Shown here: positions 1 to 9,627 of the stretch, in pieces | Position numbering within the stretch: the stretch's first letter is position 1 | Layout: every line of letters starts with the position of its first letter | Source: an uncultured beta proteobacterium | Lineage (GTDB): Bacteria; Pseudomonadota; Gammaproteobacteria; Burkholderiales; Rhodocyclaceae | Direction: 5' to 3' | Length of the DNA: 9,627 nt | Assembly: GCA_903917505.1 (NCBI GenBank) | Contig: CAIXAY010000118.1 | Coordinates: forward strand, 1 to 9,627 | The notes under the pieces: generated by a model | What the model saw: only the letters and a program-made list of their open reading frames with translations | What the model was told of the DNA's origin: nothing | The model's database searches: none | Translations under genes and position numbers: made by a program

Positions 1-125
1 AATTCCGCGCCATTCACATCATCGACGTATTGAGCGGCCATGGCGATCTGCTCGGCGACCTCTGGTCTTATTCCGGCGGCGCGCGCAATTGCGTATGTGC
101 CGTAGAAGTGCATATCGGTTTGCAT
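1..125 (-). CDS. DUF6765-like protein, N-terminal fragment
   Basis: Reading leftward from the ATG at 125-123 gives 41 codons that run off the window edge. The protein begins MQTDMHFYGTYAIARAAG and continues to a segment ending AAQYVDD. This arrangement (M-x-x-D-x-H-x-Y near the start, then an alanine-rich helix and an S/A-Q-Y/F-V-D-D motif) is what I recall from the N terminus of the DUF6765 family, whose function is unknown to me. The start is supported by an AGGA ribosome-binding site at 132-135 (complement), 6 nt from the ATG, and by a good promoter further upstream (157-185). It is transcribed divergently from the TIGR04255 gene and shares its control region. Whether it belongs to that module functionally cannot be told from 41 residues. 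The family call rests on memory of the motif alone. Confidence 0.6.
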   Translation of the reverse strand, partial: MQTDMHFYGTYAIARAAGIRPEVAEQIAMAAQYVDDVNGAE

Positions 126-138
126 TTTTAATCCTAAA

Positions 139-197
139 TGTAAAGTAACGTGTAAAATAGTAACCGCACCGTTCCTTTTTGTCAATTAGTGTGTAAA
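139..197. repeat. three TGTAAA repeats in the divergent promoter region
   Basis: TGTAAA occurs at 139-144, 151-156 and 192-197. The first two begin 12 bp apart and are each followed by a GTAAC (145-149 and 160-164). The second and third are both preceded by G, giving GTGTAAA, and begin 41 bp apart, close to four helical turns. They lie around the leftward start site and -35. The spacing suggests protein-binding sites, perhaps for the helix-turn-helix protein encoded downstream, but in an AT-rich gap chance recurrence of a 6-mer is possible. Confidence 0.35.
157..185 (-). promoter_or_regulatory. sigma70-type promoter for the leftward gene
   Basis: On the minus strand a perfect TTGACA (complement of 180-185) is followed after exactly 17 nt by TACTAT (complement of 157-162), a 4/6 match to the -10 consensus. 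Transcription would start near 150, giving a leader of about 25 nt before the ATG at 125. The site lies in the only gap between the two divergent genes. Seen directly as a sequence match; activity is inferred. Confidence 0.55.
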
Positions 198-208
198 CTA
201 ATTATTAA
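179..208 (+). promoter_or_regulatory. candidate promoter of the TIGR04255-HTH-kinase operon
   Basis: TTGTCA (179-184, 5/6 to the -35 consensus) and TATTAA (203-208, 4/6 to the -10) are separated by 18 nt, with a start expected near 215, about 60 nt before the TTG start codon. Its -35 is offset by one base from the -35 of the leftward promoter, because TTGTCAA reads as TTGACAA on the other strand. The 184-203 inverted repeat fills the spacer, so a bound repressor would block it. This is a weaker match than the leftward promoter. Confidence 0.35.
184..203. promoter_or_regulatory. candidate operator, 7-bp inverted repeat
   Basis: AATTAGT (184-190) and ACTAATT (197-203) are perfect inverted arms around a 6-nt centre, 20 bp overall. 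The palindrome starts inside the shared -35 element and ends at the rightward -10, a typical place for an autorepressor operator. The natural candidate ligand is the helix-turn-helix protein of the operon; that link is inference. Confidence 0.45.
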
Positions 209-225
209 GTCGGTGTCTAACCGAC
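209..225. promoter_or_regulatory. second inverted repeat (6-bp arms) at the operon start
   Basis: GTCGGT (209-214) and ACCGAC (220-225) are perfect inverted arms around a 5-nt loop. The element lies across the predicted rightward transcription start, so it could be a second operator or a small 5' hairpin in the mRNA. Its sequence differs from the 184-203 palindrome, so the two need not bind the same protein. Confidence 0.4.
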
Positions 226-265
226 CGTATCCAACAAGGCAATTTCGCCTTTATTTTTCTTGACC

Positions 266-270
266 GGAGA
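266..270 (+). promoter_or_regulatory. ribosome-binding site deciding the TTG start
   Basis: GGAGA at 266-270 is 5 nt upstream of the TTG at 276. The next in-frame ATG lies well inside the protein, so this site supports TTG as the start of the TIGR04255 gene. Confidence 0.65.
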
Positions 271-275
271 TTAAA

Positions 276-1097
276 TTGGCTGACACCACCAGGGCGCAGG
301 GCCGTTGGCCCAACGCGCCTTTGGCGCTTGTTTTGGCGCAAGTGCGCTTTGAACCGTCTCCCGAGACGGGTACCGATTCCGTCGTTCACCGCCTCAATGA
401 GCAGATTGGCAACGAGTTCACACGCAACAACACGTTGCAGCAGTTCTCTCTCGTGCTGGGCGATGGTAAGCCGCAGCAATTCGTGCCCTCTCCTGAAACC
501 GTGGGGAACGATCTGCTTACAGAGGATGGATCCCGGGTGTTGCGCGTGCAATCGGGCGCTCTGACCTACATCACATCGTCGTACCACAATTTTCCGGCGT
601 TTTTGGCCCAATGGAGCGGTTACATTCAGGCGCTATGCGGCGCGGAATCAATCCGGGCGCTGCGACTTGGGCTTCGCTATGTTGATTTCATTATTCCCAG
701 TGACGGCCACATCCCTGAGAACTACCTTGTGGAAGGATTTGGTCGCTCCCCAAGTGTGCTTGGTGCGCAATCGCCGATCAGCTGGAATCTCTTCGATTAC
801 GAACGCGAGGCTGGTGGGCGGTTGCGTATTCAGTACGGTCGCGGCTTTGGACCTCCCTCACTGCCGCCCGATCTTATGGGTACCGTTCCTCCGCCGGGAA
901 GCCTTACACAACAGTATGCCGAAGGGTTGTCTGGCGTTCTGGATATGGACTGCTGGCGCCCGGCAAATGAAGCGATGTCGGCGGATGACATCGCCGGGGA
1001 GTTTTCTGCTCTGCGCGATGATATTGCCACAGCATTCCGGGCTATCATCACTCCTCTGGCCACCCGAGAGTGGCAAACCGCGCTGCCCAAAGGATAG
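276..1097 (+). CDS. TIGR04255 family protein
   Basis: A 273-residue protein of the sporadically distributed TIGR04255 family, whose biochemical role I do not know. The N terminus (about residues 12-30) carries the proline-rich start and beta-strand usual for the family (PNAPLALVLAQVRFEP). Around residues 126-139 is the family's hallmark segment, a GLRYVDFI-type motif following a leucine/arginine-rich strand. No signal peptide or membrane segment is seen, so it should be cytosolic. The start is TTG at 276, chosen because GGAGA (266-270) stands 5 nt before it and the family's N terminus begins soon after. It is the first gene of the cluster and is followed after 3 nt by the helix-turn-helix gene, so the two are almost certainly co-transcribed. 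Members are commonly found in accessory regions, which fits the integrase downstream. The family call is from motif memory. Confidence 0.75.
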   Translation: MADTTRAQGRWPNAPLALVLAQVRFEPSPETGTDSVVHRLNEQIGNEFTRNNTLQQFSLVLGDGKPQQFVPSPETVGNDLLTEDGSRVLRVQSGALTYITSSYHNFPAFLAQWSGYIQALCGAESIRALRLGLRYVDFIIPSDGHIPENYLVEGFGRSPSVLGAQSPISWNLFDYEREAGGRLRIQYGRGFGPPSLPPDLMGTVPPPGSLTQQYAEGLSGVLDMDCWRPANEAMSADDIAGEFSALRDDIATAFRAIITPLATREWQTALPKG

Positions 1098-1100
1098 GTA

Positions 1101-1829
1101 ATGGAAATCAACAGGAATGAAGGTCGGCGGGAACTTCTGGCGCGCCTCGGTACGAGCGGATCGTGGCCACAGCAGCAGACTTGGTATAACACCGGTTGGA
1201 CGGCGTCGTTGGCTAATGCGATGCAGTATGCCCAGTACCTGAATATTGGTTTTGGGGTTGCGCAATCGGGAGCCGTAACACAACTACTTGAGCCTTTTCA
1301 TGCATTCGAGACGACAGGCGGGCGCTTGATCGTACATGCTGTCAGAATTTCTCAGACCGCCTCGGCAACTATTGACTCCGATGACGTGATTTCACCGGCC
1401 ACAATGGTGTCGTTGGTGCGTTCGGTGTTCTCCCTGAATGTCAGTGATGCAGCATCGGCATTCTGTGTCAGTCGCCCTACCATTTACCAGTGGGGCTCGT
1501 TGTCCAGCTTCGAGATGATCCGTTCCAACAAGGTTCGCGAGCGCATCAAGTCACTCTACCGATTGGCCAAAGCCTGGGAATCGTTTGGGCCGTTGCAGGG
1601 CCGATGGCAAAAAGCGGTTCTGTCGGACGGGTCGAGTCTGTTCGAACTGTTGTGTGCTAATGAAATCGACTCAAAACGGATACAGAAGTTGCATTCGACG
1701 TTTGTCGCGCAACAGTCACGCCTAAAACAGGAAGAGCATCAGCGCGCAGTACGCGCCGTCTCCAAGCTAGGATCTTCGTTTGCGAAGCTTGCAGCAAACG
1801 AGAAGGCACGGGGCAAGGGGGGCATCTGA
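1101..1829 (+). CDS. helix-turn-helix protein, possible antitoxin/regulator
   Basis: A 242-residue protein. Residues about 100-131 form a helix-turn-helix: a helical lead, then NVSDAASAFCVSRPTIYQW (113-131), matching the common 'AA..F.VSRPTIY.W' recognition-helix pattern. Downstream, a helical stretch (about 140-160) and a segment around 175-190 with a W...SLFELL pattern faintly recall the Xre/MbcA/ParS (DUF2384-like) antitoxins, in which such a C-terminal part contacts the toxin. The first 95 residues match nothing I recognise. The C-terminal 45 residues are highly charged and probably helical. The ATG at 1101 follows AAGGATAGG in the end of the previous gene, so translation is likely coupled. 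By position it may autoregulate the operon through the palindromes at 184-225 and neutralise the kinase encoded next. The DNA-binding call is good; the antitoxin role is inference. The last codons contain a run of six G (1817-1822) that matters for the next gene. Confidence 0.7.
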   Translation: MEINRNEGRRELLARLGTSGSWPQQQTWYNTGWTASLANAMQYAQYLNIGFGVAQSGAVTQLLEPFHAFETTGGRLIVHAVRISQTASATIDSDDVISPATMVSLVRSVFSLNVSDAASAFCVSRPTIYQWGSLSSFEMIRSNKVRERIKSLYRLAKAWESFGPLQGRWQKAVLSDGSSLFELLCANEIDSKRIQKLHSTFVAQQSRLKQEEHQRAVRAVSKLGSSFAKLAANEKARGKGGI

Positions 1830-2527
1830 GTCTTTTTGAGTCCTTTTTCGAGCGCCTCCGTTTCGCAATTGAAAATACCGATGGACCGCTGATGGTTATG
1901 ATTGCCGGCATGAATGGTGCGGGCAAGTCGACGTGTTACCGAGTGTATCTAGCTGAAGCGCTCACCGGCGAACTGGACGAACATATTGATCCGGATGTCA
2001 TTGAGAAAGCCTTGCGGGCTGACTGTATAAACTTTCCCCCCAACGCCAAAAGTTGGTCGGCCCTCGCACAAGAAGAAAGCAACCAACGTCGAATCAACTG
2101 TCTGAAAGACGGCGTTAGTTTCAGCTTCGAGACCGTGTTTTCAGACAATGTCGGTGACAAACTGAGGTTTATGAAGGAAGCGCGCGATCGAGGCTATTTT
2201 GTCGTGTTGCTTGGTGTTGGGCTGTGTTCCGCTGAAAAGTCCGAAGAACGTGTCGCATTGCGCGTCACGCGCGGCGGGCATTCCGTCCCGGTAAAAGCCA
2301 TCCTCGAACGATACCCTCGCGTACTCAAGAATCTGGATGAAGGTGTGAAGATCGCATCGCTCGCGCTGTTGGTCGACAATAGTGAGGATGTGCTTGACCA
2401 TGATGGGGCCGCGTATAAGGCATTCGCGATTTTTGAGGATGGTGTGTTGGTTGAACAGACGACGTTCCCCGCGTGGTGGCCTGTTACGCATGATCACTCA
2501 TCCGAAAAGACTGAGTATGACGATTAG
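1826..2527 (+). CDS. zeta-toxin/COG4185-like P-loop kinase
   Basis: The core (from the first ATG at 1892, 211 residues) has a Walker A motif GMNGAGKST at residues 6-14, a DPDVIEKALR segment at 33-42 like the zeta-family substrate loop, FSFETVFS at 77-84, and an R-x-x-RGGHSVP...ERYPRVLKNL segment at 124-148. All are typical of the zeta toxin / COG4185 group of small kinases; characterised zeta toxins phosphorylate UDP-N-acetylglucosamine. It should be cytosolic. The frame stays open and coding-like for 22 codons before ATG 1892 (reading SLFESFFERLRF and so on to DGPL), with no ATG, GTG or TTG among them and only a poor ribosome-binding site before 1892. I therefore place the likely start at CTG 1826, which overlaps the TGA of the preceding gene and follows AAGGGGGG. 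A -1 frameshift fusion, or simple use of ATG 1892, are the alternatives. The product is probably the active (toxic) part of the cassette. Substrate unknown. Confidence 0.72.
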   Translation: MSLFESFFERLRFAIENTDGPLMVMIAGMNGAGKSTCYRVYLAEALTGELDEHIDPDVIEKALRADCINFPPNAKSWSALAQEESNQRRINCLKDGVSFSFETVFSDNVGDKLRFMKEARDRGYFVVLLGVGLCSAEKSEERVALRVTRGGHSVPVKAILERYPRVLKNLDEGVKIASLALLVDNSEDVLDHDGAAYKAFAIFEDGVLVEQTTFPAWWPVTHDHSSEKTEYDD

Positions 2528-2640
2528 ACTCAAGCCGCGTATTTTGGTCTATCTAAGTGCGTTCAATAGCCAGTTACGGTGTCAATAGGCGATCACGACC
2601 ATCGAATTCCGCCATAAACGCGTCGTAGATGGCAGGTTTC

Positions 2641-2668
2641 CCTGACCGGCAGTGCACTACCGGTCAGG
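2641..2668. repeat. perfect 9-bp inverted repeat with palindromic loop
   Basis: CCTGACCGG (2641-2649) pairs with CCGGTCAGG (2660-2668). The 10-nt loop itself contains the 8-bp palindrome AGTGCACT (2651-2658), so the whole can fold into a long, nearly continuous cruciform. It shares its core with the next palindrome. Confidence 0.65.
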
Positions 2669-2675
2669 AGCGCAT

Positions 2676-2698
2676 GGGGTGCACTAAAAGTGCACCCC
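2676..2698. repeat. perfect 10-bp inverted repeat with AAA loop
   Basis: GGGGTGCACT (2676-2685) pairs with AGTGCACCCC (2689-2698) across an AAA loop. Both arms contain GTGCACT or its complement, as in the loop of the palindrome 8 bp upstream. A stem this strong could act as a bidirectional terminator, a recombinase binding site or a mobile-element end; the sequence does not decide between them. Confidence 0.65.
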
Positions 2699-2724
2699 GA
2701 TGCAAGGGCTCAAGTTCAGGGACG

Positions 2725-3711
2725 CTACCCAAGTTTCCGAACCAGGTCGGCCGTGTCCTCTTTGTAGTAGCGCATTACCGAACGCGGTGACCGATGCCCG
2801 GCAACCTTGGCCAGCTCATGCATTGCGAGCACCTTGGCCATCCGCGACACGGCAACGTGTCGCAGGTCGTGGAAGCGGATGTCGGCTAGCTTTGCGCGTT
2901 GCGCGGCGCGCTGGAAGCCCTCTGTCACGGCAGTTTCACTGGACTTGAACACCCTGCCGCCGGCGATGTCGCGCGGAAGCGATTGGAGTACCGCAACCGC
3001 GCGGCTCGATAGAGGGACCGTCCGCGAGTCACCGTTCTTGGTCCGTGGCAAATACGCCATCTGGCGCTTTAGATCGACGTGCTCCCAAATCAGTCCCAAG
3101 ATCTCCCCGCGCCGCATGGCGGTCTCGAGCGCGAGGCGGACGATGGCTTTGAGATGCTTGCTGCGGCTTTGATCCAGCGCTTCCATGAGCCTCTCTTCTT
3201 CGTCCGTGTCCAAGCCTCGGTCGCGTTCGTTGCGGATCGAAGGTTTGCGCACGCTCTCGACAGGGTTGCCCAGGGGGAGAGGAATTCCGAAATCAACAGT
3301 CGCCGCTTTGTATAGGCGGCCAAGAACGGCGAGATAATGCTGCACGGTTTGCGGGCCGATCATTTTCCCTAAGTCGTCGCGCCACCCGGCAACCATGGCC
3401 GGGGTCAAGGCGGAGAGGTTGTACTTGCCGAATTTCTCAATAATCGCGCGAACGCGCTGCGACTCCTGCCGCACGCTGCGTATTCTGTTTTCGACGCGCT
3501 CAGCCAAGTAACGGTCAGCCAATTCGTTGATCGTCGTCCGCATCGCCGCACTGCGCGGTATGAATGATCCGGTGTCCATCTCGCGCTCGATGGCGGTCAC
3601 CCATTTTTGCGCGTCTTTGCGGGTCTCGAAAGTTGCTGACTGCGCCGGATATCCCAGTCGCCTAACCTGGGCTTGAAACTGGTAATCTCCTCTTTTACGG
3701 ATTGTGCCCAT
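2725..3711 (-). CDS. tyrosine recombinase (phage-type integrase)
   Basis: A complete 328-residue site-specific integrase. Residues 1-50 form the arm-type N-terminal domain often seen in short phage-like integrases ([18 protein letters not shown]). Residues about 60-140 are the core-binding SAM-like domain. Residues about 165-328 are the catalytic domain with every expected residue: R200 ([10 protein letters not shown]), K225 ([12 protein letters not shown]), H281 and R284 (HDLRH), H306 (AGHRS) and the nucleophile Y315 (MRYYKE). It should therefore be active. An AGGAGA ribosome-binding site (complement of 3723-3728) lies 11 nt before the ATG. The gene points into the island and away from ubiA, with only 27 bp between the two proposed start codons. 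A TATATT -10-like hexamer (complement of 3745-3750) lies inside the first ubiA codons, suggesting its promoter overlaps that gene. It most likely integrated the accessory region to its left, with one attachment site near 3712-3780. Confidence 0.93.
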
Positions 3712-3738
3712 TATTTTTTGCTCTCCTGTGACGCCATT

Positions 3739-4620
3739 GTGACAAATATAACAGAAATCCGCGACAAGATAGAGTTATACGAGCGTCTGATGCGGCTCGA
3801 CAAGCCGATCGGCATTCTGCTGCTGCTCTGGCCGACGCTCTGGGCGCTGTGGTTTTCCGCGTACGGGACGCCGGACTGGCGCGTCGTGTGGATCTTCGTG
3901 CTCGGCACCGTACTGATGCGCTCGGCCGGCTGCGTGATGAACGACATCGCCGACCGCGACTTCGATCCGCAAGTGGCGCGCACGCGCGCCCGCCCGCTGG
4001 CTACCGGCGAGGCGTCGGTCAAGGAAGCATTGATCCTGTCCGGCGTGCTGGTTCTCTTGTCGTTCATCCTGATCCTGCCGTTTCGCAGCTGGCACCTGAT
4101 CGGCTGGTCGGCCGTCGCGCTGTTTCTCGCTGCGACCTATCCGCTGACCAAGCGTTTCTTCGCCGTGCCGCAGGCCTATCTCGGCATCGCTTTCGGCTTC
4201 GGCATTCCGATGGCCTACGTCGCGCAGATCGACATGGTCCCCCGTGTCGGCTGGTGGCTGCTGCTCGCCAACATCTTCTGGGCGATGGCTTACGATACCG
4301 AATACGCAATGGTTGATCGCGCCGACGATCTGCGCACCGGCATCAAGACCTCGGCGATCACCTTCGGCCGCTTCGATGTCGCCGCGGTCATGCTCTGCTA
4401 CACCGTGACGCTGGCGCTGATCGCCTGGGTCGGCCATCTGCTGCACATGGGCGGGGTGTTTTGCGCCGGACTGGTCGGCGCGGCGGCGATCGCCGGCTAT
4501 CACTACACGCTGATCCGCCGGCGCGAGCCGGCGCGCTGCTTCAAGGCCTTCCTGCACAACAACTGGTTCGGCGCGGCGGTCTTCGCCGGCATCGCGCTCG
4601 ATTACTTGAGGCAGACTTGA
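3739..4620 (+). CDS. ubiA: 4-hydroxybenzoate polyprenyltransferase
   Basis: Integral membrane prenyltransferase that attaches the polyprenyl tail to 4-hydroxybenzoate in ubiquinone synthesis. With the GTG at 3739 as start it has 293 residues, close to the 290 of E. coli UbiA, and the same order of motifs: [19 protein letters not shown] near the N terminus, the first Asp motif NDIADRDFD (residues 68-76) and the second, DRADD (193-197), followed by LRTGIKT. Both bind the Mg-diphosphate. Multiple hydrophobic helices fill the rest, and the C-terminal [12 protein letters not shown] matches the family. Start choice is uncertain: GTG 3739 fits the family length, but no ribosome-binding site precedes it, and an ATG at 3673 would overlap the integrase and add an unfamiliar N terminus. 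The first dozen codons are AT-rich, unlike the rest. It lies upstream of ubiD on the same strand, which performs the next kind of step in the pathway. Confidence 0.93.
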
Positions 4621-4669
4621 AAGACATCTAAGCTCGCCGAACAGGGAGCCCGGTATTAAAGTTCCACAT

Positions 4670-4694
4670 CGTCATTCCGGCGAAAGCCGGAATC
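4670..4694. repeat. REP-like hairpin, first copy
   Basis: ATTCCGGC (4674-4681) pairs perfectly with GCCGGAAT (4686-4693) across a GAAA tetraloop, preceded by CGTC. This form (CGTCATTCC..GCGAAAGC..GGAATC) resembles short extragenic palindromes scattered in many proteobacterial genomes, as I remember them. It sits 50 bp after the ubiA stop. Confidence 0.7.
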
Positions 4695-4734
4695 TGACCA
4701 ACGGGAATGCAGAGCCAGAACAGAGGGTCACTGG

Positions 4735-4757
4735 ACAGCGGCTTTCGCCGGTGTGAC
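4735..4757. repeat. REP-like hairpin, inverted diverged copy
   Basis: The reverse complement begins CGTCA and contains CCGGCGAAAGCCG, matching the copy at 4670-4694 apart from changes in the stem base. The two face each other about 40 bp apart, as in a BIME or REPIN-type pair. The copy ends 20 bp before the ubiD start codon, so it lies in or beside the ubiD leader. Confidence 0.6.
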
Positions 4758-4764
4758 GACCGCC

Positions 4765-4770
4765 AAGGAA
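4765..4770 (+). promoter_or_regulatory. ribosome-binding site fixing the ubiD start
   Basis: AAGGAA at 4765-4770 lies 6 nt before ATG 4777. It excludes the in-frame GTG at 4753, which falls within the REP-like repeat and would add eight residues not found in UbiD proteins. Confidence 0.75.
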
Positions 4771-4776
4771 TTAAGA

Positions 4777-6252
4777 ATGAACTATCTCGACCTGCGCGAT
4801 TTCATCGCGCAACTGGAAAGCATGGGCGAACTCAAGCGCGTCGCCGTCGAGATCGACACGCGCTTCGAGATGACCGAAATCTGCGACCGCGTTTTGCGTG
4901 CCGGCGGCCCGGCGATTCTGTTCGAGCATCCGAAGGGCGCGGCTGGGCCAAACTCGATGCCGGTCCTTTGCAACCTGTTCGGCACGCCGCGCCGCGTTGC
5001 GCTCGGCATGGGGCAGGAATCGGTGAGCGCCTTGCGCGAAGTCGGCAAGCTGCTCGCCTACCTCAAGGAACCCGAACCGCCCAAGGGTCTCAAGGACGCC
5101 TGGGACAAGCTGCCGATCCTGAAACAGGTGCTCAACATGGCGCCGAAAATCGTCTCTTCGGCGCCGTGCCAGGAGATCGTCTGGGAAGGCCGCGACGTCG
5201 ACCTCGCGCGCCTGCCGATCCAGCATTGCTGGCCGGGCGACGTCGCGCCGCTGATCACCTGGGGCCTGACCGTGACGCGCGGGCCGCACAAGGCGCGGCA
5301 GAATCTCGGCATTTACCGGCAACAGGTAATCGGGGCCAACAAGGTGATCATGCGCTGGCTTGCGCAGCGCGGCGGCGCGCTCGATTTCCGCGATCACTGC
5401 CTGGCGAATCCGGGGCAGCCTTTCCCGGTCGCGGTCGCCCTCGGCGCCGATCCGGCGACCATCCTGGCGGCGGTCACGCCGGTGCCCGACAATCTCTCCG
5501 AGTACCAGTTCGCGGGTCTCTTGCGCGGCGGCAAGAGCGAGGTCGTCAAGTGCTTCGGTTCCGACCTGCAGGTGCCGGCTTCGGCCGAAATCGTTCTCGA
5601 AGGCTTCATCGATCCGGCCGAGACCGCGCTCGAGGGCCCTTACGGCGACCACACCGGCTATTACAACGAGCAGGCGCATTTTCCAGTGTTCACGATAACG
5701 CGCATCAGCATGCGCAAAGATCCGATCTACCACAGCACCTACACCGGCAAGCCGCCGGACGAGCCGGCGATGCTCGGCGTCGCCCTCAACGAAGTGTTCG
5801 TGCCGCTCCTGCAAAAACAGTTTCCCGAGATCGTCGATTTCTACCTGCCGCCCGAAGGCTGCTCGTACCGCCTGGCGACGGTGAGCATCCGCAAGCAGTA
5901 TCCCGGCCACGCCAAGCGCGTGATGTTCGGCATCTGGAGCTTTCTGCGCCAGTTCATGTACACCAAGTTCATCGTCGTCGTCGACGACGACGTCGATATC
6001 CGCGACTGGAAGGAAGTCATCTGGGCGATGACTACCCGCGTCGATGCGGCGCGCGACACGCTGATCGCCGAGAACACGCCGATCGATTACCTGGATTTCG
6101 CGAGCCCGGTCAGCGGCCTGGGCAGCAAGATGGGCATCGACGCGACCAGCAAGTGGCCGGGCGAGACGAGCCGCACCTGGGGCACCCCGATCGCCAAGGA
6201 CGCCGCGGTCAAAGCGCGCGTCGATGCGCTGTGGCAGGATCTCGGACTTTAG
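4777..6252 (+). CDS. ubiD: 3-polyprenyl-4-hydroxybenzoate decarboxylase
   Basis: UbiD removes the carboxylate from 3-polyprenyl-4-hydroxybenzoate in ubiquinone synthesis. It uses prenylated FMN supplied by UbiX, plus Mn and K ions. The 491-residue product is nearly the length of the E. coli enzyme (about 497) and collinear with it. The N terminus [21 protein letters not shown] is typical. Segments [22 protein letters not shown] (ending at R181) and [13 protein letters not shown] (from E286) form the cofactor and active-site region; by comparison with Fdc1, N176, R181, E286 and D291 are likely metal-binding or catalytic positions. LPPEGCSYR and the C-terminal [16 protein letters not shown] also match. 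The start is ATG 4777, set by AAGGAA 6 nt upstream. It follows ubiA by 156 bp containing a REP-like pair, so the two may share transcription but could be differentially expressed. No UbiX gene is in the window. The gene looks intact and its codon use agrees with its right-hand neighbour. Confidence 0.96.
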
Positions 6253-6334
6253 GCCTCCTGCCGGCGAGGCGCAGGATTCTTTGCGGCGCCGCTTTGGCGT
6301 ACGATGGGCGTCGGCGAAAGTGACGAAAGTGTCG

Positions 6335-9300
6335 ATGAACCAAGCTGCTGATCCCGCGAAGATTTGGCGACTGACCCCCGCCCGGCTGGCGCTGCTTTAC
6401 GCGGCCTTCGCCGGCTTGTGGATCGTCGCCTCGGGCGCCTTGCTGATCCTCAACGTCGATGACCCGGTCTGGCGCGGCCGGATCGAACTCGGCAAGGGCC
6501 TGCTTTTCGTCGCGGTGACCAGCAGCCTGCTCTACCTCCTGCTCAAGCATTGGCGCGAGCCCCTGCCGGTCGCTTCGCCGGCGCTGTTCGGCCAGCAACT
6601 GGTGCCGCGCCGCAAGCGCCGCTGGCGAGCCCTGGTCCTGATGGTGCTGCTGGCGCTGGTGCCGTTCGCCGGCCTGCTGGTCATCGAGGTGCATGGCCCG
6701 CAGATCGAGCGCGAGGCCCTGGCCAACCTGGAAGCCATCGCGGACCTCAAGACCAGCCAGATCGAAAACTGGCTCGATGAGCGTGACAACGACGGCACCG
6801 TCATCATGTCCAGCGCCAGCTTCGTCAGTCAGGTCGAGATCTTGCAGCGAGCCGGCGGCGGGCGGGTGCGGGCCGACGTGCAAACGCGGCTCAACGAAAT
6901 CATGGCTGCGCTGCATTATGACGAGGCCATTCTGGTCGATGCGCTCGGGCGGTCGCTGATCACCCAGGGCCAATTTCCCGACTTGCCGCCGCTGACCCTG
7001 GCGCTGCTGCCGAAGGCGCTGGCGACCGAGCAGACGCAGAAAAGCGAAATCGTCGCCGATGCGCAGGGTGAATTGCATTTCGATCTCGTCGTGCCCCTGC
7101 TCAAGTTCGAGAATGGCTGGCGGCAGGCCGTGGGCGCCGTGGTTCTGCGCGTCTCGCCGCAGCGCTTTCTGTTCCCCTATATCCAGCATTGGCCGACCGC
7201 GAGCGCGCCCGGCGAAGCGGTGCTGTTGCGGCGCGACGGCGACGCCGTGGTGTTCATCAACGAACTGCGCCACCGCCAAGGCCGCGGCCTGTCGCTGCGT
7301 TTGCCGACCGGCGACACCAGCGTGGCCGCCCGCGCCGTCGCGGCAGTCGCCTCGTCGCAGCGGCCGGGAACGCTGCAGGGTCGCGATTACCGCGGCGTGC
7401 CTGTACTGGCGGCCTATCGGCCGGTGCTCGGAACCGACTGGGTATTCATCGCCAAGGTCGATCGCGACGAAGTGCGGGCGCCCTTGCGCGCGCTGGCCTT
7501 CTGGGTCAGCCTGATCGCCCTGCTGGCCATCGCCGCCGTCAGCGCGCTGATGCTCGTGCTCTGGCGCCAGAGCGCGCGCGCCTTGAAACTCGAGATGCAG
7601 GCACAGTCGGACAAGCTGGTGCGGCAGTTCTACGATCTGCCCTTCATCGGCATTGCGATCAGTTCGCCGAAGACCAAGCACTGGCTGAAGTTCAACGACC
7701 GCCTGTGCGAAATCCTCGGCTATTCGCGCCAGGAAATGGCCACGGTCAGTTGGGCGGACATGACCCATCCCGATGATCTGACGACGAATCTTGCCGAGTT
7801 CGATCGCGTCATGCGCGGCGAGTCCGAAGGCTACACCCTGGACAAGCGTTTCATCCGCAAGGACGGCACGACCGTATACACCACGCTCGATGTCAAGTGC
7901 GTGCGCGCTGCCGACGGCAGCGTCGAGTACATGTTCGCGACGACGCAGGACATCAGCGAACGCAAGGAGGCGGAGGCGAAGATTCAGCGCCTGACCCAGC
8001 TCCACGCCGCCTTGAGCGAATGCAATCAGGCCATCGTGCGCTGCTCGAGCGAGGCCGAACTGTTTCCGCAAATCTGCCGCATCGCCGTGCAGATCGGCGG
8101 CATGACGATGGCCTGGGTCGGATTCGTCGATCCGGAAACGCTGCGTGTCCGGCCGGTGGCCTCTTACGGCGACGCGACGAATTTTCTCGCCACCGGCGAA
8201 ATCAGTGCGGATGCCGCGAGTCCCTATGGCCAGGGCGCGGCCGGCACGGCCATCCGCGGCGGCAAACCGGTGTGGATCCCGGACTACCTCGACGATCCGC
8301 GCACCCTGGCCTGGCGCGCACCGGCCGCGCTGGCCGGCTGGAAAGCGACGGCCGCCTTGCCCCTGGTCAGGAACGAACAGGTGCTCGGCGTGTTCGTGCT
8401 CAATGCCAGCGTGGCCAACCCCTTCGACGAAGCGGTGTGCACCGTGCTCAGCCAGATGGCGGCGGACATCAGCTATGCGCTGAGCGCCTTCGCCAGGGAG
8501 GCTGAACGCCAGCAGACGGAAATCGCGCTGCGCGAGAGCGAAAGCCGCTTCCGCGATCTTTATGAAAAAGCGCCGCTGGCCTATCAGTCGCTGGATATCG
8601 AGGGAAGAATCCTGGAAGTGAACGAAGCCTGGCTGGCCTTGCTCGGGCGCTCGCGCGACGAAGTCATCGGACGCTTCATCGGCGATTTCTTGACCGAAGC
8701 TTCGCTCACGACTTTGCAGGACGAATTCCCGCGCTTCCAGCGGCACGGACGCGTCGATGGCGTGCTTTTCCAGTTCGTGCAGAAGGACGGCTCGCTGCGC
8801 TTGCTGATGGTCAACGGGCAGGCCGCGCGCGACCAGGACGGCAATTTCCTGCGCTCGCACTGCATCCTGACCGATCTCACCGAGCGCCTGCAAGCGGAGG
8901 AGAAACTCAAGCTGGCGGCCAAGGTCTTCGAACAGAGCGCCGAAGGCATCATCATCACCGACGCCGCGCGCAATATCGTGATGGTCAATCAGGCCTTCAG
9001 CACTATCACCGGCTACAGTGCCGCCGACGCCCTGAACCGCAATCCGCACATGCTCTCCTCGGGATATCACGACGCTCATTTCTACGAGGCGATGTGGGCG
9101 GCCGTGCACACCGGCGGTCACTGGTACGGCGAAATGTGGAACCGGCGCAAGAACGGCGACATCTATCCGGAACTCGTGTCGATCAGCCAGGTGCTCGATG
9201 GCAATGGCGCGGTGACGCACTATGTCGGCATCTTCAGCGATATCTCGGAACACAAGGCCAATGAAGAGCGCATTCAGTACCTCGCGCACTTCGACGCGCT

Positions 9301-9627
9301 CACTGGCTTGCCCAATCGCAGCCTGCTGGCCGACCGCGTCGGCCAGGCGCTCTCCCGGGTCGAGCGCAACCGCGAACCGCTGGGGCTGGTCTTCCTCGAT
9401 CTTGACCGCTTCAAGAACGTCAATGATTCGCTCGGGCATCGCATCGGCGACGAACTGCTGATCCAGGTCGCCGAGCGCCTGCGCTCGGCCCTGCGCGAGG
9501 AGGACACCGTTTCGCGCCTGGACGGCGACGAATTCATCCTGGTCCTGCCCGGCACCGACGCCGACGGCGTCGCCCACGTCGCCGAAAAACTGCTCAAGAC
9601 CATTTCGACGCCTTACACGATCGCGCC
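6335..9627 (+). CDS. membrane PAS/GAF/GGDEF sensor, 3' end beyond window
   Basis: From ATG 6335 the frame is open for 1097 codons to the window edge. Order: hydrophobic segments at about 18-39, 54-70 and 98-117; a region of some 270 residues, probably periplasmic and Cache-like (its ANLEAIADLKTSQIENWL start is typical); a fourth membrane segment at about 387-411; PAS at 431-545; GAF at about 550-728; PAS at about 732-855; PAS at about 859-975; and a GGDEF domain from HFDALTGLPNR onward. The GGDEF core has LDLDRFKNVNDSLGHRIGDELL, an RxxD inhibitory c-di-GMP site (R1054-D1057) and the signature DGDEF (1063-1067) in place of GGDEF. It is therefore a likely c-di-GMP signalling receptor, and an EAL domain may follow beyond the edge. 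The start could also be GTG 6329 or 6320; ribosome-binding sequence is weak (GAAAG, 6325-6329). No ligand can be inferred. Confidence 0.93.
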   Translation, partial: MNQAADPAKIWRLTPARLALLYAAFAGLWIVASGALLILNVDDPVWRGRIELGKGLLFVAVTSSLLYLLLKHWREPLPVASPALFGQQLVPRRKRRWRALVLMVLLALVPFAGLLVIEVHGPQIEREALANLEAIADLKTSQIENWLDERDNDGTVIMSSASFVSQVEILQRAGGGRVRADVQTRLNEIMAALHYDEAILVDALGRSLITQGQFPDLPPLTLALLPKALATEQTQKSEIVADAQGELHFDLVVPLLKFENGWRQAVGAVVLRVSPQRFLFPYIQHWPTASAPGEAVLLRRDGDAVVFINELRHRQGRGLSLRLPTGDTSVAARAVAAVASSQRPGTLQGRDYRGVPVLAAYRPVLGTDWVFIAKVDRDEVRAPLRALAFWVSLIALLAIAAVSALMLVLWRQSARALKLEMQAQSDKLVRQFYDLPFIGIAISSPKTKHWLKFNDRLCEILGYSRQEMATVSWADMTHPDDLTTNLAEFDRVMRGESEGYTLDKRFIRKDGTTVYTTLDVKCVRAADGSVEYMFATTQDISERKEAEAKIQRLTQLHAALSECNQAIVRCSSEAELFPQICRIAVQIGGMTMAWVGFVDPETLRVRPVASYGDATNFLATGEISADAASPYGQGAAGTAIRGGKPVWIPDYLDDPRTLAWRAPAALAGWKATAALPLVRNEQVLGVFVLNASVANPFDEAVCTVLSQMAADISYALSAFAREAERQQTEIALRESESRFRDLYEKAPLAYQSLDIEGRILEVNEAWLALLGRSRDEVIGRFIGDFLTEASLTTLQDEFPRFQRHGRVDGVLFQFVQKDGSLRLLMVNGQAARDQDGNFLRSHCILTDLTERLQAEEKLKLAAKVFEQSAEGIIITDAARNIVMVNQAFSTITGYSAADALNRNPHMLSSGYHDAHFYEAMWAAVHTGGHWYGEMWNRRKNGDIYPELVSISQVLDGNGAVTHYVGIFSDISEHKANEERIQYLAHFDALTGLPNRSLLADRVGQALSRVERNREPLGLVFLDLDRFKNVNDSLGHRIGDELLIQVAERLRSALREEDTVSRLDGDEFILVLPGTDADGVAHVAEKLLKTISTPYTIA

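Follow-up and report, generated by a model that had tools for sequence, protein, structure and literature searches.

The DNA analysed here (hereafter the window) is a stretch of 9,627 nucleotides from an uncultured beta proteobacterium of the Rhodocyclaceae (GenBank assembly GCA_903917505.1, contig CAIXAY010000118.1, positions 1 to 9,627, forward strand), in which three adjoining open reading frames (ORFs) on the plus strand encode a TIGR04255 family protein, a helix-turn-helix (HTH) protein and a zeta-family kinase. With slightly better than even confidence, we hypothesize that this trio is a tripartite toxin-antitoxin (TA) module on an integrase-bearing island, in which the antitoxin is under the control of the TIGR04255 protein and the toxin can be exchanged. 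A TA reading is the most likely one because toxin families occupy the third slot of some related loci, the second gene resembles antitoxin genes, and the operon is tight.

The three-gene operon and the integrase

Gene 1 (276..1097, plus strand; 273 aa from a TTG start) encodes a member of the NCBIfam family TIGR04255, matching the model with 105.8 bits (cut-off 30) over model positions 1-251 of 252. It is followed after 3 nt by the HTH gene (gene 2; 1101..1829, plus strand, 242 aa) and then by the kinase gene (gene 3; 1826..2527, plus strand, from a proposed CTG start at 1826), whose product is, to judge from its sequence, a probable toxin. To the right, on the minus strand, lies a tyrosine integrase gene (2725..3711) that matches PF00589 with 92 bits over positions 3-169 of 172. 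The GC content is 52-58% in the trio, 60% in the integrase gene and 64-65% in the three genes beyond it; at third codon positions (GC3) the corresponding values are 0.56-0.62, 0.64 and 0.84-0.88, and because of this difference in GC3 the trio and the integrase gene together look like a foreign island. The ORFs, the 3-nt gap, the base composition and the nearly full-length integrase match all agree with the first-pass annotation, which had described three packed rightward genes in lower-GC DNA beside an intact integrase.

The third gene is exchangeable

Searches of three genome samples found TIGR04255 in 15 of 190, 27 of 274 and 22 of 149 genomes, and in none of 14 well-known control genomes. 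We compared 91 TIGR04255 loci: 82 from the three genome samples, five from plasmid records, the window itself and three from another search; two short fragments (second pieces in genomes G366 and G219) do not count as loci of their own. The profiles that classify the following genes were seeded from the same 91 loci, and the tally describes those loci; the class names WDG and CD-motif were coined in this analysis. A recognised partner lies downstream in 62 of the 91 loci. WDG plus a gene for a protein of ~150 aa accounts for 21, HTH plus CD-motif for 15, and CD-motif with a short or no linker gene for nine; a WDG gene only is seen in five loci, a ~150-aa gene only in three and an HTH gene only in three. 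A PIN gene follows in four loci and a PemK/MazF gene in one (both over the Pfam cut-off), and the combination of HTH and zeta kinase occurs once, in the window. The other 29 loci have no recognised partner, some of them lying at contig ends or carrying stops in TIGR04255. Among 57 genes scanned (mostly third genes, three of them second), the toxin families found were PIN four times, PemK once and zeta once; a dihydroorotate dehydrogenase and a metallo-beta-lactamase-type protein were also present, encoded by genes that probably lie outside any TIGR04255 operon.

The packing of these genes is consistent: where a recognised gene 3 comes third, the junction between TIGR04255 and gene 2 is at most 25 nt in 50 of 51 loci and the next junction in 46 of 51. 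The five plasmid records that matched TIGR04255 all have one layout, in which TIGR04255 is followed first by an HTH-like gene and then by a CD-motif gene. These sequences suggest a fixed unit made of TIGR04255, a second gene and an exchangeable third gene. The three-gene cassette first proposed for this DNA therefore survives as a TA-like cassette whose TIGR04255 and second genes recur, but not in its fixed kinase, which is one of several alternative third genes.

The CD-motif proteins form an uncharacterised family of ~280 aa with the motifs W.QG, CD and RY.R..FPD (for example L009:6408-7244, L085:5447-6256 and L098:5486-6331, L numbers denoting loci); neither Pfam nor NCBIfam yielded a curated family that includes them. 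Of the 19 loci where an HTH gene follows TIGR04255, 15 have a gene for such a protein in third position. At another locus (L131:5154-5609) the third gene encodes a DUF7689 protein (137 bits), possibly a further module. The short gene-2 proteins of three of the four PIN loci (L087, L137, L139), together with that of L149, where no gene 3 was recognised, have a common C-terminal tail with RGE or GGE near the end, as if the gene-2 C-terminus were toxin-specific.

Recurrence of TIGR04255 with the kinase clade

A protein search with the kinase returned 499 relatives, of which the best 120 were used; we defined its clade as the 72 proteins (P0007-P0078, 70 to 41% identity) that precede a drop in score, a border of our own setting. 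The corresponding TIGR04255 search found 286 proteins, and the best 120, including the window's own, left 119 homologues. Co-occurrence was judged by a fingerprint in which proteins are paired by exactly equal length of their longest contig, neighbouring DNA itself not being read, and the control consisted of the same lengths shifted by 1 to 200 either way. Twenty of the 72 clade kinases share a fingerprint with one of the 119 TIGR04255 homologues (shifted control: mean 0.62, maximum 4), as compared with 1 of 46 kinases outside the clade. A search with the HTH protein returned four relatives besides itself, three of which share a fingerprint with a TIGR04255 homologue; none of the four fingerprints occurs among the best 120 of the 499 kinase relatives. 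The fingerprint matches and the few HTH relatives lead us to suggest that TIGR04255 and the kinase recur together and that the middle gene diverges fastest or differs across loci. It is by fingerprint only that this recurrence is seen, whereas the gene order and families of the window, and the exchange of gene 3 elsewhere, are seen by sequence. The refuting outcome named in the first-pass annotation, that the homologues seldom occur together, did not arise, and the view of TIGR04255 as a recurring third component is supported. In genome contigs, at least four relatives of the clade kinase were found, all remote.

An antitoxin-like second gene

The Pfam matches of the HTH protein are all below threshold (HTH_23, 17 bits against a cut-off of 24.6), and its HTH assignment is backed by the predicted structure and by profile matches. 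In the AlphaFold2 model the N-terminal 94 residues are predicted to be disordered, and extensions, including a long C-terminal helix, flank the HTH-bearing core on both sides. The folded part (residues about 92-207; 1374..1721, plus strand) best matches the antitoxins NatR, MbcA and VPA0769, with 102-109 residues covered in the four top-ranked matches and 54-73 in the others listed; NatR and MbcA stand on top, and PezA and epsilon are not among the matches listed. The model thus has the fold of the Xre/MbcA/ParS antitoxins, an HTH combined with a toxin-binding domain. Sequence comparison points the same way, as a profile built from 16 gene-2 proteins matches MbcA (E 0.00029) and NatR (E 0.015). 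Against a hidden Markov model of 17 other TIGR04255-linked gene-2 proteins, with the window left out of the seed, the window's gene 2 scores 81.4 bits (E 5.5e-24), and on this sequence comparison it is homologous to gene 2 of the operons that combine TIGR04255, HTH and CD-motif genes. No Pfam match at E 1 or below was found for PF09722, which we take to be the accession of the Xre/MbcA/ParS toxin-binding domain; for this reason gene 2 is called similar to these antitoxins and is not filed as a member. The modelled core upholds the antitoxin look that the first-pass annotation had ascribed to the HTH protein, making it a probable antitoxin and autoregulator.

Many gene-2 proteins of TIGR04255 loci (for example L164, L135, L085, L013, L137, L093 and L092) carry a signal-peptide-like hydrophobic stretch in their first 75 residues. 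The maximum 15-residue hydropathy reaches at least 1.6 in 9 of 19 HTH-type proteins, 3 of 4 PIN-type, 2 of 7 short-CD-type and 0 of 29 type-2 proteins; the stretch in the window's gene 2 is weak (1.15).

The kinase and its start

The kinase is a member of the zeta toxin family PF06414 (36.7 bits, cut-off 22.3) and has the P-loop and the conserved acidic residue of that family. Zeta toxins characteristically phosphorylate UDP-sugars, with toxic effect. The Walker A motif GMNGAGKS (1907..1930, plus strand) contains G27, N29, G30, A31, G32 and K33, all invariant in 66 aligned sequences, as are H52 and D56 of the HIDPD motif (1982..1996, plus strand); by analogy with zeta, Asp56 is presumably the catalytic base.

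Called mechanically, the kinase ORF begins at ATG 1892 and encodes 211 aa, which would leave a 62-nt gap behind the HTH gene; from CTG 1826 it encodes 233 aa. The open frame upstream of ATG 1892 encodes SLFESFFERLRFAIENTDGPL, and an N-terminal extension of at least 12 residues is present in 12 of 65 aligned relatives, several of them alike (P0009 MTLFEAFGKRL, P0011 ...LSLFESFSQRL, P0033 ...LSLFHDF), the rest being annotated with a start at the P-loop or close to it. Because the upstream frame is open and the extension is common to relatives, the kinase probably starts at CTG 1826, inside the HTH stop (CTGA, 1826..1829, plus strand), a site preceded by AAGGGGGG. Of the two forms in which this junction was originally described, an overlap or a close junction, the overlap is thus preferred, probably one of 4 nt, the 62-nt gap applying to the ATG start. 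A slippery-type heptamer, G GGG GGC, lies at 1817-1823, three bases before the HTH stop and placed such that a -1 shift would lead into the kinase frame, and may yield a frameshifted HTH-kinase fusion.

A proposed mechanism

Since TIGR04255 is the constant part of these loci, its most likely target is gene 2 or the complex, and since it precedes other toxin genes elsewhere, it is probably a shared controller of TA systems. We infer toxicity, its neutralisation, repression, binding of TIGR04255 to the antitoxin and a trigger, as follows. The zeta-type kinase would be the toxin and the HTH protein its antitoxin, probably also the repressor of the operon. TIGR04255, as a dedicated third component, would bind the antitoxin, probably at the variable N-terminal part of the latter, and keep it competent. 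Were TIGR04255 drawn away or the antitoxin degraded, as might happen upon infection or when the island is lost, the kinase would be set free and would phosphorylate a small-molecule substrate, such that growth stops. Elsewhere, the same controller would be paired with other toxins.

Comparison with known systems

The omega-epsilon-zeta system has three genes with the kinase last. The trio shares with it, and with epsilon-zeta and PezAT, a zeta-family P-loop kinase in last place beside an HTH or antitoxin gene; it differs in that its first gene encodes a TIGR04255 protein of 273 aa, its antitoxin core is like NatR/MbcA, and its kinase comes from a group marked by an HIDPD-type motif. Antitoxins of the Xre/MbcA/ParS type (NatR, MbcA, VPA0769) pair with RES-domain toxins. 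Gene 2 differs from them in its adjacent partner, a zeta-type kinase and not a RES enzyme, as well as in its disordered N-terminus, its long C-terminal helix and the missing PF09722 match; the NatRT system is described in PMC11535050. TAC and CmdTAC also comprise three genes, including an extra component that controls the antitoxin (proposed for the trio, shown for TAC/CmdTAC): TAC antitoxins depend on a chaperone (PMC5105189), and in CmdTAC it is CmdC that recognises a capsid protein and then sets the toxin free (PMC11618068). A chaperone-addiction extension is a mark of TAC antitoxins; gene 2 has extensions on either side of its core. Unlike these systems, TIGR04255 has no SecB-like match among the structure matches listed; a SecB-like chaperone by fold was set aside, SecB being absent among the Protein Data Bank (PDB) matches listed, which still leaves SecB possible.

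Alternative explanations

The AlphaFold2 model of TIGR04255 (predicted local distance difference test score 88.9, predicted template-modelling score 0.87) has a predicted fold like that of the TATA-binding protein (TBP) or the helix-grip proteins. Its listed matches in the PDB (Foldseek and VIA), which range from weak to middling, include TBP, a Rep initiator, S-adenosylmethionine decarboxylase, guanidino kinases and Mediator heads among others; TBP entries recur among the Foldseek matches (1ais, E 1.8e-3; 7o4i; 7z0o). Better than the PDB matches is one to the model of an unnamed viral protein of 202 aa (A0A515MGR4; E 3.6e-7, TM score 0.61 by target length). The recurring TBP entries, together with the likeness of the gene layout to omega-epsilon-zeta, favour the best surviving alternative, itself unlikely: that TIGR04255 is a transcription co-regulator like omega, which uses a TBP-like sheet to work together with the HTH protein on the promoter of the operon and is no partner of an antitoxin.

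Rather improbable is an abortive-infection system in which TIGR04255 is the sensor of a phage product and itself switches on the kinase, the HTH protein being no more than a repressor. Its link to an integrase and the restriction-modification-type genes that adjoin some related loci would suit such a role, but gene 2 resembles whole antitoxins, more than an HTH alone, and the known zeta toxins are kept inactive only by binding of their antitoxin. The PADLOC scan covered 114 of 116 listed neighbour proteins of related loci (two of L165 were left out), and no family, among the best 25 of 259, matched more than 2 of the 114. TIGR04255 had no match in 50,697 phage records. The kinase matched 3 phage and 496 plasmid records; identity stays under 60% throughout and is 31-40% in those listed; the HTH protein had no match in plasmids. 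Scans of viral contigs with HTH, kinase and TIGR04255 queries, which rely on short peptide patterns, gave no relative, and the HIDPD DNA pattern was found in two contigs, both times within an ORF of ~595 aa without a match to the profiles.

More doubtful still is a two-gene HTH-kinase TA pair in which TIGR04255 has no part, being a passenger that the same mobile island happens to carry. The 29 loci without a recognised partner suggest that TIGR04255 may act alone in some cases, but a passenger would fit poorly with a TIGR04255-gene 2 junction of at most 25 nt in all but one of the three-gene loci and with the fingerprints common to clade kinases and TIGR04255 homologues. That the kinase serves metabolism or regulation as a P-loop enzyme, in an operon unconnected with toxicity, is very improbable, given its score above the zeta cut-off, the PIN and PemK toxins in the same slot of five other loci, and its antitoxin-like neighbour.

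Surroundings of the operon

At the left edge of the window lies a fragment of a DUF6765 gene (3-185, minus strand; PF20551, 56.9 bits), which begins divergently beside the TIGR04255 gene; among the 90 other loci, one (L035) has a DUF6765 gene, two ORFs upstream of TIGR04255 and 58% identical over 36 residues. Right of the integrase follow ubiA, ubiD and a long gene whose product, judged from its translation alone, we take for a PAS/GGDEF protein. Upstream of TIGR04255 there is one direct repeat pair (71%; 132-159 and 173-200) and one inverted repeat pair (237-245 and 273-281); the sole pair found in a search for flanking repeats in 1-4200 (70%) sits inside the trio. In 1-3800, no promoter-like site was found on the plus strand and one on the minus strand (1.8 in shuffles); an Rfam scan gave no match, and neither did E. 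coli genomes compared with 2500-9627. In a search of 229 genomes for an empty insertion site, the best UbiD match (82%) was in the L003 genome (Gallionellales), where the DNA upstream of ubiD is unlike the window, so that no comparison is possible.

Conclusions

The name 'TIGR04255 family protein' in NCBIfam carries no function. No paper with the word TIGR04255 was found in the open-access literature, a scope that leaves out most subscription papers and all preprints, and among the matches listed there, this gene set appears in no title or abstract start. We report here an operon pattern for the family: in some genomes TIGR04255 stands at the head of operons ending in PIN, MazF or zeta toxin genes, which gives a function-less family name a testable role. 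Tentatively, TIGR04255 may be the common controller of three-gene TA or defence modules that make up a widespread superfamily without a name. In these modules a TBP-fold protein would bind the variable N-terminus of gene 2, and the C-terminal part of gene 2 would change in step with the toxin, be it a zeta kinase, PIN, MazF, a CD-motif or a ~150-aa protein; if so, the CD-motif and ~150-aa families would be new toxins. The operon pattern predicts these two uncharacterised third-gene families as toxins, and suggests that one controller is able to pair with several unrelated toxins.
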